A program made the position numbers and the translations under genes. A model generated the notes under the pieces. The model searched no databases. It was given only the letters and a program-made list of their open reading frames with translations, and had not been told where the DNA came from. A stretch of 64,000 nucleotides of DNA from Prevotella falsenii DSM 22864 = JCM 15124 (GTDB lineage Bacteria; Bacteroidota; Bacteroidia; Bacteroidales; Bacteroidaceae), in NCBI RefSeq assembly GCF_000613945.1, contig NZ_BAJY01000001.1, positions 62,001-126,000 of the forward strand. Reading direction: 5' to 3'. Below, in pieces: positions 5,390-61,849 of the stretch (position 1 is the first letter of the stretch; each line of letters opens with the position of its first letter).

Positions 5390-5455
5390 ACAGAATATGA
5401 CGTCATTTTCTACAAAATATGACGTCATATTTGCTGAAATATGACGTCATATTTA
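5390..5455. repeat. Three-unit 22-nt array with TGACGTCA palindromes
   Basis: The palindrome TGACGTCA occurs at 5398-5405, 5420-5427 and 5442-5449, exactly 22 bases apart. The surrounding bases are also repeated (aaATATGACGTCATATTT). The array lies between the GntR gene and pepO. It could be an operator array, since the spacing is two helical turns, or one more 22-nt repeat array of the kind seen elsewhere in the window. Confidence 0.85.
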
Positions 5456-5576
5456 CAAAGACCACATAAACAAACAAGCATATCGTACTTTAGCATTGAA
5501 AAACTTGCTACATATAAAAAATATTTATAATATTGCACTCCAATTGAAATATCACAATAAAAATAACAAGCAAAAC

Positions 5577-7601: not shown

Positions 7602-7658
7602 GCAACACGAAACCCGCAGCAGCAAATCGCTGACAAGCTGCTAAGGCAACATACAAAG

Positions 7659-7696
7659 TCCCTACAAACAGACTCAATGCTGATTGTAGGGATTTT
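7659..7696 (+). terminator. Intrinsic terminator after pepO
   Basis: TCCCTACAA (7659-7667) pairs with TTGTAGGGA (7684-7692), followed by TTTT. It lies 58 bases past the pepO stop. Confidence 0.75.
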
Positions 7697-7778
7697 CTGT
7701 GCACGATAAGAACAAGCACAAATATCCATCAGAAATATCTGTTAAAATATGGAAAAGATGCTCGAAGCAAAACAAACA

Positions 7779-7910
7779 TTTTGGCAGAATAGTTCTGTAC
7801 TGACGGTATAATGACTCTGTACGGTTGGCATAATAGCTCTATACGGTTGGTAGAATGGCTCTGTACGGTTGGTAGAATGGTACTGTAATATTGGTAGAAA
7901 AGCTCTGTAC
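7779..7910. repeat. Six-unit 22-nt tandem array
   Basis: Six imperfect units of exactly 22 bases at 7779, 7801, 7823, 7845, 7867 and 7889, with a partial seventh to about 7922. The best conserved unit reads GGTTGGTAGAATGGCTCTG plus TAC. Units 3 and 4 are the most alike and the outer units have drifted. It is not related in sequence to the dispersed element that begins directly after it. It forms part of the 1-kb gene-free stretch 7602-8606. Confidence 0.9.
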
Positions 7911-7927
7911 TAACGGCACCATCTAAT

Positions 7928-8385
7928 AAAACAGTGAGATATTTTCCGTTTAATATTGTAAAGATAATTCTGTTAAAAAGTGATATAATCGCTTTGGCGT
8001 TGCGAAAGCGTAGGTTTTACAACGCAAAACCTACGGTTTTACCGTGCAAAACCTACGGTTTTGGAATGCAAAACAATAGGTTTTATAACACACTGGTGGA
8101 TAGATGGTTACGCAACAGCTATACTTGCGAAAAATGTTTACGTTTTTATTGTCTTCTTTCCGTTCTTTTCTCGTTCCTCGAAAAGTGCATTTTCTCGCCA
8201 TGACAATGCTTAAATTAATTTGGCATTGCTCATTTGGCTGAACGAAAACGTTCATAAATAACGTGGGGTCGGTGTAAGTATTTGCGGACGGAGATACTTC
8301 ATTTCTTCTTGAGTATAGGCATATTAAATCATCATCAGTTCTTTCTTTAAGTATCTTAATGAATAATATACCGGCGTAACTCTTA
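7928..8385 (+). repeat. 22-nt-core dispersed element, copy B (long form)
   Basis: One of the two longest copies. Left flank AAAGATAATTCTGTTAAA leads into core units at 8002, 8024, 8046 and 8068, each 22 bases. The right flank includes GCGAAAAATGTTTACG, then a distal part with CGGTGTAAG and the CTTTCTTTAAGTATCTT motif at about 8341. The distal part is shared, inverted, with copy D at 18755-19195. The remainder of the gap to 8524 shows nothing else. Confidence 0.8.
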
Positions 8386-8524
8386 TGCCGAACGCACGTT
8401 ACACCTCCACTTACCAGCCATGAAATGTATGCAATAAACGTACTTAAATTATACTATTCTTCTGTTTTATTGTTCTTTTACACCGACAAAAAGCAAAGGT
8501 TAAATCATAATAACTTCAAAATAA

Positions 8525-8556
8525 TTTCCTTATATCATCAAAATTTACTATTTTTG
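8525..8556 (+). promoter_or_regulatory. Promoter of the acyl-CoA ligase gene
   Basis: -7 TATTTTTG at 8549-8556 with TTTC at 8525-8528 in the -33 position, 20 bases apart. One base differs from the -33 consensus. Confidence 0.6.
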
Positions 8557-8606
8557 CATTTATTAAAGGTGGACTAACGTTCGTGTTCACGAAAAGAAAA
8601 AGGACT

Positions 8607-13802: not shown

Positions 13803-13965
13803 CATTGTAAAGATAATTCTGTTAAAAAGTGATATAATCGCTTTGGTGTTGCGAAACCGTAGGTTTTGCAGTGTAAAACATACGGTTTTGCAACATACTG
13901 ATAACGAGATTGTTACGCAAGAGATACGCTTGCGAAAAATATTTACGCTTTTATTGTCTGATTAT
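13803..13965 (+). repeat. 22-nt-core dispersed element, copy C (two units)
   Basis: Left flank TTGTAAAGATAATTCTG leads into only two core units (13851-13872 and 13873-13894). The right flank ATACTGATAACGAG..GCGAAAAATATTTACG follows. It is the shortest clear member of the family. Confidence 0.8.
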
Positions 13966-18682: not shown

Positions 18683-18754
18683 AGGGAGTTAAAGCCGACA
18701 AAATGCGGTTTCACAGCTCTTTGCACTTGCAGTAACGTGAGTTCGGTATAAAAG

Positions 18755-19270
18755 AATAATGCCGGTATATTATTGATAAGATACTTTAAGAAAGAGTTGA
18801 TTATGATTTAATATGCTTATAATCAGAAAGGAGAAGAAGTGCCTTCGCCCGCAAATTCTTACACCGGACTCACGTTATTCATGAACGTTTCCGTTCAGCC
18901 AAATGAGTAATGACAAATTTATTTAAGCATTGCCATGGCGAGAAAATACACTTTTCGAAGAACGAGAAAAGAACGAAAAGAAGGCAACAAAAACGTAAAT
19001 ATTTTTCGCAGGAATAGATGTTACGTAACAATCTCTGCATCAACGTATTACAAAACCTATTGTTTTGCATTCCAAAACCGTAGGTTTTGCACGGTAAAAG
19101 CGTAGGTTTTACAACGCAAAACCTACGGTTTCGCAACGCCAAAGCGATTATATCACTTTTTAACGGAATTATCTTTACAATATTGAACAAAAAAATCTCT
19201 CATTATTTCATTAGCGGACTTGCTTGAAAACATCTGCGAGATTACTTGCTTAACTGCTTTCTTATGTCGA
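18755..19270 (-). repeat. 22-nt-core dispersed element, copy D (long form)
   Basis: Inverted relative to copy B and sharing its distal part (GATACTTTAAGAAAGAG at about 18779). Core units are at 19047, 19069, 19091 and 19113. Beyond the AGTGATATAATCGC-like flank it continues with CATTAGCGGACTTGCTTG and AACATCTGCGAGATTAC (19209-19244). That segment is the uninterrupted form of the site that holds the 197-bp element in copy J. It fills most of the gene-free stretch 18683-19438. Confidence 0.8.
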
Positions 19271-19380
19271 GTTCACGTTCAATACGGCAACAGTGCAGCC
19301 GCATTGTAGTGTTAATACAACTACTCTTTAAAAATCTGTAATGGTAGTTTAAGGATACGTTTTTCATTGATAATCTAAGT

Positions 19381-25609: not shown

Positions 25610-25965
25610 TACGTGAGTTCGGAAAAAGAAAACAGGTTAAGCAGGCTAATATCGCAGATGTTTTTCAGCAAATACCCTGATGAAACAGTGAGAGATTTTC
25701 AGTTTAATCTTGTAAAGATAATTCTGTTAAAAAAGTGATATAATCGCTTTGGTGTTGCGAAAGCGGCTGTTTTGCGTTGCAAAACCTACGGTTTTACCGT
25801 GCAAAACAGCCGCTTTTGGAATGCAAAACAATAGGTTTTGCAATACATTGATAACGAGATTGTTACGCAAGAGATACGCTTGCGAAAAATATTTACGTAT
25901 TTATAGTCTTCTTTTTGTTTATAAACAACGTGAGTTCGGTGTAAGAATTAGAGAGCGAACAATCT
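25610..25965 (+). repeat. 22-nt-core dispersed element, copy E
   Basis: Begins with ACGTGAGTTCGG and AGGTTAAGCAGGCTAATATC (distal left part, shared with copies D and J). Core units at 25757, 25779, 25801 and 25823 use the words GCGGCTG, CCTACGG, CAGCCGC and CAATAGG. The right flank runs through GCGAAAAATATTTACG to a second GTGAGTTCGGTGTAAG at about 25930. From there to 26190 the gene-free sequence is AT-rich with no other feature. Confidence 0.8.
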
Positions 25966-28674: not shown

Positions 28675-28905
28675 AGTTTGACAGGCAAGAAAAAGGGCGA
28701 AAGATACGTAAATATTTTTCATAAACATATCTGTTGCTTAACTTGCTTACTGCCAACGCTTTACAAAACCTATTGTTTTGCATTCCAAAACCGTAGGTTT
28801 TGCACGGTAAAAGCGGCTGTTTTGCGTTGCAAAACCTACGGTTTCGCAACGCCAAATCGAAATTATCGTTTTCTTAACGAATTATCTTTACAAAGCAAGA
28901 GCGAT
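28675..28905 (-). repeat. 22-nt-core dispersed element, copy F
   Basis: Core units at 28760, 28782, 28804 and 28826, read in the inverted orientation. The words are CAATAGG-type, CCGTAGG, GCGGCTG and CCTACGG. Conserved flanks lie on both sides. It lies directly after the LysR gene. Confidence 0.8.
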
Positions 28906-33278: not shown

Positions 33279-33405
33279 AACAATGTTTGCCAAAGGAACG
33301 ATAATAACTTGTTGGCAGAATTGATTGGGAAGAAACATTACAAAAACATCGTTTTGGTGAAGTCTTCGTAAGTATCTGACAATCAGTTACTACGTTTTTA
33401 CGTTC

Positions 33406-33493
33406 CAAAAGCGTAGGTTTTGAAGAGTAAAAGCGTAGGTTTTGCAATGCGAAACCTACGCTTTTGAAATGCCAAACCGCAGGTTTCAAAAAA
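33406..33493. repeat. Degenerate 22-nt array without flanks (copy G)
   Basis: Four 22-base units at 33406, 33428, 33450 and 33472 made of the familiar words (GCGTAGG, GCGTAGG, CCTACGC, CCGCAGG). The conserved left and right flanks of the family are missing. The rest of the 446-base gap (33279-33724) holds only the -7 box of the next gene. Confidence 0.8.
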
Positions 33494-40140: not shown

Positions 40141-40352
40141 TGCTGCAAAGGTATTGCTAATGCGTACAAAGATAGTTCTATTCTACCATATCTACAAATT
40201 ATTTTCGACGAGTAATCCCCCTTGTTTCGACGAAAATGGGAATGAACGAGTAATATAATAGCAAACATAAGGCGGAAGAGCCTGTTTAAAGGCAATTCCG
40301 CAAGGAACTCTATGAGATTTAAGATTTACCGGACAGCAATATTACCAAGCGT

Positions 40353-40483
40353 TGGTAATACGATTACCATAGGTCTGTAATCGGATTACCATCAATCTGT
40401 AATCGATTACCACCGATTGGTAATCCGATTATATGATGTGAGTAATCCGGCTGTTTGATGTAAGTAAGCCGATTATCTGATGT
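40353..40483. repeat. Six-unit 22-nt array with GTAATCGGATTAC palindromes
   Basis: Units at 40353, 40375, 40397, 40418, 40440 and 40462; all are 22 bases except the third, which is 21. The shared core is GTAATCGGATTAC, a near or perfect palindrome in the first four units (GTAATCGATTAC in the third). The later units decay to GTAATCCGG and GTAAGCCGATTA. The rest of the 458-base gap (40141-40598) shows nothing else. Confidence 0.88.
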
Positions 40484-40598
40484 AAATAGTTCTTGAACCG
40501 ATTGGGGTTTAAGATTTCCTGCCCATTTGGTTTTAAACGTCAGCAGCAGGGCAACCATGTCAGTGTATGTTTCGCTTTCATTGTTTCGTATCTTTACT

Positions 40599-51440: not shown

Positions 51441-51572
51441 CTTTTAGGAAAAACGTCCGTACTTTTCGCTCAAAAAGTACGGACGTTTTACCGAAAAAGT
51501 ACTATCGTTTTTCAAAGAAAGTATATAGGTTTTGCAATTCGCTTACTATCAGCGAGTTGCAAAAGAGGCAAT
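51441..51572. repeat. 22-nt array with strong hairpin
   Basis: Six 22-base units from 51441; those at 51463, 51485, 51507 and 51529 share the AAAAAGTACTATCGTTTT-like pattern at constant phase. Units one and two hold a perfect 16-bp inverted repeat, 51451-51466 with 51473-51488, and a six-base loop. The rest of the gap 51223-51648 is AT-rich without other features. Confidence 0.75.
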
Positions 51573-51648
51573 TTTTAGGTAAAAACATGGCTGCGCCGGG
51601 CACTTTTTGGAGTGAGAAATGCCCGGTTTTGAAGCGATGAAATTGTCG

Positions 51649-55374: not shown

Positions 55375-55640
55375 CAGACTTTTTTAGCAAACATCTAATG
55401 AAACGGTGAGAGCTTTTTATTGTTTAATTTTGTAAAGATAATTCCGTTAAAAAGTGATATAATCGCTTTGGCGTTGCGAAACCGTAGGTTTTGCGTTGTA
55501 AAACCTACGGTTTTACCGTGCAAAACCTACGGTTTTGGAATGCAAAACAATAGGTTTTGTAATACACTGACAAAGAGATAGTTACACAGTCTCTACGGTT
55601 ATGAAAAATATTTACGTTTTTATCGCTTTATTTTCGCCTA
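55375..55640 (+). repeat. 22-nt-core dispersed element, copy I
   Basis: Left part CTTGCAGACTTTTTTAGC and TGAAACGGTGAGAGC, then the AAAGATAATTCCGTTAAA flank. Core units lie at 55476, 55498, 55520 and 55542. The right flank is TACACTGACAAAGAGATAG and ATGAAAAATATTTACG. It lies in the 560-base gap between the acyltransferase and the BlaI-like gene. Confidence 0.8.
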
Positions 55641-57854: not shown

Positions 57855-58460
57855 AAGCGAAAAGATACTTAAAGAAAGAGTTGATTATTATTTAATGCGC
57901 TTATAATCAAGAAAAAGTGAAGTGTTTTCGTCCGCAAATTCCTACACCAAACTCGCATTATTCATAAACGAAAAGAAGATAATAAAGGTATAAATATTTT
58001 TCACAAGCATAAGTATCGCTTAACTCTTTATCCACCGGTGTATTACAAAACCTATTGTTGTGCGTTCCAAAAGCGGCGGTTTTGCATCGCAAAACAGCCG
58101 CTTTCGCAATGTCAAAACGCAATTATCACTTTTTAACGGAATTATCTTTATAAGATTAAACGGAAAATCTCTCACGGCTTCATTAGCGGACCTGCTTAAA
58201 CCCCAATCGCTCATTGGGACGCCTTTGCTTAGATGTGTTATTACCGTCATGCTTCCTTACCGGTTTCGTCCGCTTGCCGGCATCTGCACAGCCATTACAT
58301 CTCGACGTAGCCCGCTACGCCTTCGATGAAATGCCGGCACAGTTGCTCAACAATCGAACAAAACCGGTAAAGGACACTGATGACCGATTGGAGTTAAAAA
58401 CATCTGCAAGATTACCTTTTTAGTCTGTTTGCCTTATGCCGAACTCACATTATCCGAAAC
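57855..58460 (-). repeat. 22-nt-core dispersed element, copy J, interrupted
   Basis: Inverted copy with distal part ATACTTAAAGAAAGAG (about 57869). It has three core units (58042, 58064, 58086), flank ACTTTTTAACGGAATTATC and the segment CATTAGCGGACCTGCTT. The 197-bp element follows at 58199-58395, after which the copy resumes with AACATCTGCAAGATTAC. Compare copy D, where this segment is continuous. The remainder of the gap to 58693 shows no clear feature. Confidence 0.8.
58199..58395 (+). repeat. 197-bp inverted-repeat element, copy 2
   Basis: Begins AACCCCAATCG and ends CGATTGGAGTT. It is inserted in a 22-nt-core dispersed element (copy J). The interior is highly similar to copies 1 and 3 without length changes. 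Confidence 0.85.
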
Positions 58461-61641: not shown

Positions 61642-61838
61642 AACCCCAATCGGTCATTAGAGTCCTTGACTGATTTTGTTCGATTGTTGAGCAGATGTGC
61701 CGGCATTTCATCGAAGGCGTAGCGGGCTACGGCGAGATGGAATGGCTGCGCATCTGCCGGCAAGCGGACGAAAGCAGTAAGGAAGCACGACGGTAATGAC
61801 AAATATAAGCAAAGGCGTCCTAATGACCTATTGGGGTT
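61642..61838 (-). repeat. 197-bp inverted-repeat element, copy 3
   Basis: Opposite orientation to copies 1 and 2. Starts AACCCCAATCGGTCATTAG and ends CTAATGACCTATTGGGGTT, so the outer 20 bases are almost perfect inverted repeats. It begins 25 bases after the korB stop and ends just before the likely korAB terminator. Confidence 0.85.
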
Positions 61839-61849
61839 AAAATATCCGG

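Follow-up and report, generated by a model that had tools for sequence, protein, structure and literature searches.

A dispersed intergenic element of Prevotella, very probably PINSR, contains an array of four 22-nt A4-N7-T4-N7 units and lies in a subset of copies within a MITE

The window is a 64-kb stretch of a 2.8-Mb draft genome of the genus Prevotella (G000), in which an intergenic repeat element occurs in copies on both strands. Its core matches in the window were located with a profile built from fetched copies. A preliminary description of this DNA had listed eight copies (A to F, I and J), and all of them were recovered at or close to the places it gave, A, B, D, E, F, I and J by the profile and C in a deleted form. 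Its view that the copies are dispersed, intergenic and found on either strand also stands, with none of the 132 scored near full-length copies overlapping a gene (own open reading frame calls; 31 of 163 copies unscored). The features are as follows.

1257-1442, - strand: copy A core, four units (profile match)
7956-8143, + strand: copy B core, 188 nt, very probably PINSR (profile match 7956-8141; length and setting agree with PINSR)
8002-8023, + strand: copy B unit 1, 22 nt (core positions 47-68)
8024-8045, + strand: copy B unit 2, 22 nt (core positions 69-90)
8046-8067, + strand: copy B unit 3, 22 nt (core positions 91-112)
8068-8089, + strand: copy B unit 4, 22 nt, heptamer CAATAGG (core positions 113-134)
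8144-8399, + strand: copy B right arm, ending in the inverted-repeat motif; left inverted repeat absent
13805-13946, + strand: copy C, internally deleted core with two units (profile match)
18735-19278, - strand: copy D, MITE-form element of 544 nt (locus L004), core at 18995-19180
25710-25896, + strand: copy E core, four units (profile match)
28708-28893, - strand: copy F core, four units, without the common arms (profile match)
33367-33491, - strand: divergent array-only copy outside the earlier eight (matches both strands, better on -)
51450-51574: weak profile match
55430-55615, + strand: copy I core, four units (profile match)
57991-58152, - strand: copy J core, one unit fewer (profile match)

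The left end of copy D has three mismatches to the TIR motif, and no clear target duplication was found at this copy. The left arm of copy J is interrupted by a different element of about 207 bp (58195-58401), with TTTAA at both sides of the insert. This second repeat, which has inverted ends like TTAAACCCCAATC, is also present at 1006-1212 and 61642-61841 in the window, with further matches at loci L008, L165, L265 and L184, partial ones at L183, L282, L147 and L015, and an 82-nt match in P. koreensis (L075). In the right arm of copy B, positions 8190-8253 are an 81% match to DNA in Bacteroides, Parabacteroides and Phocaeicola plasmid records, mostly without an annotated gene (24 plasmid records, 19 among the matches listed, plus one phage record); this module is absent from copies E and J.

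The core of 186 nt starts with a left part (positions 1-46), continues with the four 22-nt units of the array (47-134) and finishes in a variable tail (135-186). Each unit approximates A4-heptamer-T4 followed by a 7-nt spacer (A4-N7-T4-N7) and is exactly 22 nt long, so that the array is 88 bp with four sites 22 bp (about two helical turns) apart, and A/T tracts recur along it every 11 bp. The strict 22-base period of the preliminary description was confirmed in the window by both repeat finding and TRF, and unit length does not vary. In G000, a two-unit pattern (up to 3 mismatches) gave 505 matches (253 and 252 on the two strands) and its reversed control none; a left-flank pattern gave 163 matches in G000 (up to 3 mismatches; 0 in the control) and 92 in G083, a two-contig genome that we used as a test case for the identity of the element. 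These differences from the controls argue that the array is not due to chance. Under a wedge model with assumed wedge values, the array is predicted to be curved (mean z = 6.3 against dinucleotide shuffles), with all 12 sampled copies at 3.0 or above.

The unit number had been described as varying between copies, which a larger sample does not bear out: it is essentially fixed at four, and its variation is not a hallmark of the element. Among 163 near full-length copies (117 from G000 and 46 from G083; 17 of the 180 unique matches are partial and were left out), 160 have cores that fit four units, with lengths of 186 nt in 145, 185 in 11, 187 in 3 and 184 in 1, the length of 185 arising in at least some copies because the profile match begins at position 2. 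The core is about one unit shorter (162-164 nt) in the other three, and an additional unit is present in one copy (L020). Most G000 and G083 loci came from left-flank pattern matches and the first 30 from BLAST with copy B, while the last 14 G000 loci (L274-L287) were picked by a unit-based pattern and are thus a biased set, which was kept in the totals for core length, ortholog similarity and gene context and left out of the diagnostic-site count.

The unit frame A4-N7-T4 is palindromic, and the heptamer words within it flip and swap between units. Unit 4 has the heptamer CAATAGG in all 74 aligned G000 copies and in 37 of the 44 from G083, and units 1 to 3 contain CCGTAGG/CCTACGG, GCGTAGG/CCTACGC, GCGGCTG/CAGCCGC or GCGGCTC/GAGCCGC, swapped and flipped among copies. 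The five bases of each unit that had been taken as variable are position-specific instead; those after unit 2, for example, read ACCGT in 69 of 74 G000 copies. The flanks, described earlier as conserved and fixed, are alike in over half of the copies without being fixed, one single-linkage family comprising the left flanks of 77 and the right flanks of 73 out of 123 near full-length copies. Neither of the two results named in advance as fatal to the preliminary description, freely varying unit lengths and flanks not conserved between copies, was obtained outright, as unit length is constant and the flanks of more than half of the copies are alike. That description contained neither the probable identity with PINSR, nor the palindromic frame with its flipping and swapping words, nor the larger MITE around a subset of copies.

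PINSR was reported as a 188-bp imperfect intergenic repeat of P. intermedia and P. nigrescens, with 177 and 184 copies in two P. intermedia strains and one copy 3' of tnaA in P. intermedia ATCC 25611 (Naito et al., 2015; PMC4755523). Compared with this published description, whose consensus is given as a figure (Fig. 4A), the Prevotella element is very probably the same repeat. The likeness extends to length (186 nt for the profile core, 188 nt in copy B), intergenic setting, high copy number, a tnaA-downstream copy and presence in P. nigrescens. A complete core is found in G083 at 239 nt beyond the tnaA match, and this genome has the element at up to 85% identity. In P. nigrescens, 207 kb of sequence (L288-L291 and L031, NZ_CP082843.1) gave 18 non-overlapping matches with E at or below 0.01, many of them partial, and a 70% relative is present in P. 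ihumii (G162).

Protein similarity makes it very probable that G083 is P. intermedia, because 197 of 201 residues (98%) of its C10 protease domain are identical to interpain A in PDB, which we take, on the basis of the reference list in PMC4755523, to be a P. intermedia enzyme. The tnaA gene of the window genome is 91.9% identical at the DNA level to that of G083 and 84% to that of P. aurantiaca, the nearest named tnaA. At the site 3' of tnaA in G000 (L032:1530-1800), the left arm is kept and the core is absent, and the G083 ortholog is a full element, which suggests an old shared insertion that lost its core in G000.

Two features of the element here differ from PINSR as published. The 22-nt array is unmentioned in the passages on PINSR in PMC4755523, where PINSR is also stated to have no TIRs and to be distinct from MITEs. 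Within the open-licence literature, only Naito et al. (2015) names PINSR together with Prevotella, and we found no description of a 22-nt array class in that literature on intergenic repeats of Prevotella and Bacteroidetes. In our analysis, no TIR was established for the core by itself. A larger element of 453-544 bp, with inverted repeats like those of ISPi1 and target duplications of 7 bp, surrounds 19 of 123 copies. The TIR ACGTGAGTTCGG (up to 3 mismatches) is present at the left in 41 of the 123 copies and at both ends in these 19 (42 and 21 respectively in a looser search). Flanks of the 19 two-TIR elements match at 6 or more of 7 positions in 8 cases, with 0.5 expected, and no signal is seen at 8 bp; the mean match of the 7-bp flanks is 0.594, against 0.419 when mispaired, a mean that none of 2000 permutations reached.

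G083 also contains elements of about 1 kb with a DDE transposase and the ends ACGTGAGTTCGATATAAG, several of which have matching 6-8-bp flanks. This transposase is assigned to the IS982 family by NCBIfam; the related ISPg3 is listed as IS5 in PMC4596501, and ISPi1 is described as having 7-bp duplications and ISPg3-type repeats (Naito et al., PMC4755523). Based on the TIRs, the 7-bp duplications and the IS with like ends, some PINSR copies are MITEs or once were, and the copies without these arms may be older or of other arm types. Open transposase frames of 308-332 aa are present in G083. Of three DDE_Tnp_1 matches in G000 (L231, L233 and L235), two are short, with frames of 74 and 150 aa close to the same TIR motif, and the partner IS may thus have decayed in the G000 draft.

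Arrays with the same 22-nt frame and other heptamers were found at loci of other Prevotella species. We counted exact matches to A4N7T4-Ns-A4N7T4 with s = 7, 6 and 8 (periods of 22, 21 and 23) in 150 Prevotella genomes, the counts being of matches and not of arrays, and regarded a genome as enriched if its period-22 count was 12 or more and no less than threefold the count at 21 or 23. By this rule, period 22 is overrepresented among A4N7T4 pairs in at least 16 of the 150, including G000 and G083, with words that differ among species and stand in both orientations, and most others have 0 to 5 matches. The counts at periods 22/21/23 are 481/0/0 in G083, 360/0/1 in G000, 126/3/4 in G038, 120/2/2 in G010, 113/2/3 in G006 and 94/0/1 in G077. 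The period-22 rule has exceptions, as shown by G133 (36/0/17) and G126 (15/28/4). G133 has both 22- and 23-nt A4N7T4 pairs, and among the matches listed the 23-nt ones mostly have an 8-nt G-rich or C-rich spacer. A backwards control (T4N7A4 frame, period 22) also gave high counts (G000 362, G083 462, G010 93 and G038 75) because the arrays contain the T4N7A4 frame too; this control therefore does not test the frame, and the period is unaffected by it. When the heptamer ends were required to be G or C, G000 had 347 matches against 9 in the control, and of 148 genomes from other genera of the order, three had a single match apiece and 145 had none.

The genome G012 has seven arrays without detectable flank similarity that have common words (GGGCTGC/GCAGCCC and GCTATGC/GCATAGC) in both orientations, and among seven G010 arrays the flanks of one pair (L293/L296) are similar. 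One of eight G012 loci and four of five G131 loci gave no three-unit chain. As the loci of G010, G012 and G131 were picked by a 22-nt pattern, their step control is biased to 22, and the fair test of the period is the exact count in 150 genomes. Three more intergenic arrays of 22-nt period, unrelated to PINSR in sequence, are present in the window (5390-5459, 7781-7910 and 40341-40485). Non-coding arrays other than PINSR in the fetched G000 and G083 loci, with periods above 16, mostly have a period of 22 or another multiple of 11, and in 80 Bacteroidales tnaA loci the array periods have a local peak at 21-23. A palindromic consensus in other intergenic arrays of about 22 nt was not supported by their TRF consensus units.

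The array is about three times closer to the consensus than the tail of the same copies, at 0.064 and 0.068 substitutions per site in G000 and G083 respectively, against 0.184 and 0.198. The left part appears closer still (0.033 and 0.045), a value that is inflated because most copies were picked by the left-flank pattern, and the left arm has a divergence of 0.154 in 32 copies picked by motif. We then compared orthologous copies, defined strictly by at least 800 nt at 85% or more identity on one side (11 such pairs have this on both sides). In 11 of the 17 strict pairs, G083 has GGCT as the unit-1 word where G000 has GTAG, and the reverse occurs in none; the word is the same in five pairs and another in one, and five G000 orthologs also have the commonest G000 block form at core positions 29-36. 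Copies in P. ihumii have G083-like words, and those in P. nigrescens have either such words or others; on this basis the G000 state looks derived. Orthologs resemble each other little more than random paralogs do: the similarities of left part, array and tail are 0.908, 0.879 and 0.775 in 19 looser pairs, compared to about 0.927, 0.895 and 0.76. The biased loci L274-L287 supply three looser pairs (of 19) and two strict ones (of 17), neither of which is among the 11. Independent identical changes of several bases are implausible, so that an explanation requires either ectopic conversion or selection exerted by a trans factor, and the change of the unit-1 word at orthologous copies is concerted evolution.

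Given the PINSR identity markers, the 22-nt register, the TIRs and 7-bp duplications of a subset, the words that differ between species and the concerted change of orthologs, we propose, with a probability of roughly 0.4, that the array lines up binding sites for a DNA-binding protein of nucleoid or regulatory type and was spread in one lineage by a MITE. The protein is predicted to dock on one face of intrinsically curved DNA at sites 22 bp apart, and a heptamer would be usable in either orientation because the A4...T4 frame is palindromic. Protein sites on one face would fit the exact register, the 11-bp spacing of A/T tracts, the predicted curvature and the indifference to orientation, and the common words at unrelated sites fit a protein that reads sequence. 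Preferred heptamers would drift among species, and the sites would change together across the genome by ectopic gene conversion, selection or both. Within the P. intermedia group, a non-autonomous transposon with ISPi1-like ends would have captured the array and spread it to more than 100 intergenic sites, and old copies would have shed their arms and retained the array. From these patterns we infer binding, a role for the curvature, an effect of binding and this order of events. Against the protein-site proposal, ectopic conversion alone could yield much of the conservation and of the shared words, and a hairpin fits the complementary units and their folding at least as well.

Taken on its own, conversion belongs to a reading in which PINSR is a purely selfish MITE without host function, its arrays made and homogenised by slippage, hairpin-templated strand switching and ectopic conversion. 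The TIRs and 7-bp duplications are consistent with it, as are the G083 IS, which shares the TIR start and has open transposase frames, and the similarity of orthologs barely above that of paralogs. Such an origin would account for a good deal of the data. It does not, however, readily explain why the array is some threefold nearer the consensus than the tail of the same copies, why G012 arrays with unrelated flanks have common words, or why the 22-nt register recurs in many species, and we consider it rather unlikely to be the full account.

Alternatively, the array may act in RNA. Unit 1 of its transcript would pair with unit 2 or 3 in a long hairpin, serving as a structural RNA or as a tandem, bidirectional terminator, and this would stop, insulate or stabilise transcripts at the 3' ends of genes. 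Reverse complementarity between units 1 and 3 (or 1 and 2) does exceed that in shuffles, with a mean best mismatch of 0.18 against 0.37 in G000 and 0.86 against 1.47 in G083 in a test in which the kinship of copies is uncontrolled; the species-diagnostic core positions pair (53:103, 56:100, 57:99 and 58:98), and both strands are predicted to fold at far lower energy than shuffles (z about -5.4). By our own open reading frame calls, copies lie between convergent genes more often than between divergent ones (40 versus 22, p = 0.03) and, where the neighbours are co-directional, have the sense orientation in 48 of 70 contexts (p = 0.0025), although a similar bias would arise if copies simply avoided promoters. 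Pairing does not hold as a general rule, since same-word unit pairs in 30 arrays outside G000 and G083 are antiparallel in 48 cases and parallel in 38 (p = 0.33), and several of these arrays lack a complementary pair; nor do hairpins need an exact 22-nt period. Around copy B (7602-8582), a search for a GC-rich hairpin followed by a T run gave one terminator-like site compared to a mean of 0.7 in shuffles, in agreement with the earlier remark that the element is not what a simple terminator would look like, and a combined scan for promoters and terminators there was likewise at shuffle level. Rfam at gathering score had no match in the window. Overall, we regard a role in RNA as unlikely. A variable-number minisatellite, as the preliminary description implied, would account for tandem intergenic units between conserved flanks, with two units in copy C and three in copy J, but is largely refuted by the four-unit core length of 160 of 163 near full-length copies and is very improbable.

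Many intergenic repeats related to palindromes occur in bacteria, including REP/REPIN, BOX and DNA uptake sequences, of which BOX is built of modular units and uptake sequences have species dialects in both orientations. To our knowledge, none of these has A4-N7-T4 units at a strict 22-nt phase. In its modular intergenic organization of leader, tandem short units and tail, and its relation to an IS via TIRs, the element resembles BrickBuilt, a MITE of P. gingivalis described with 23-nt units in 1 to 22.8 copies and GAGACC-type TIRs (PMC4596501). It differs in unit length (22 versus 23 nt), in a nearly fixed instead of a highly variable unit number and in its TIRs; with 22-nt units, four of them in 160 of 163 copies, and the TIR given above in the TIR-bounded subset, it was rejected as a member of BrickBuilt. 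The TIR of another P. gingivalis element, MITE239, begins with ACGTGAGTTCGATATAA (PMC4596501, Table 2), which is identical to the start of the G083 IS and one base off the TIR of the PINSR element. The comparison with MITE239 and MITE700 covered their TIRs, and the sections of PMC4596501 that describe them report no 22-nt array.

Extending the protein-site proposal to the genus is possible and is put forward more tentatively: many Prevotella would have intergenic A4-N7-T4 arrays at 22 bp, usable in either orientation, with species-specific heptamers that turn over together with a putative DNA-binding protein, and PINSR would be one such array multiplied by a transposon. The function and source of PINSR were left for further study by the authors who described it (Naito et al., 2015; PMC4755523). 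With a strict 22-bp array, ISPi1-like ends and like arrays with other words elsewhere, its function is now directly testable, and if a protein does read the words, PINSR would strikingly illustrate, for bacteria, a concerted shift of specificity at hundreds of dispersed sites.
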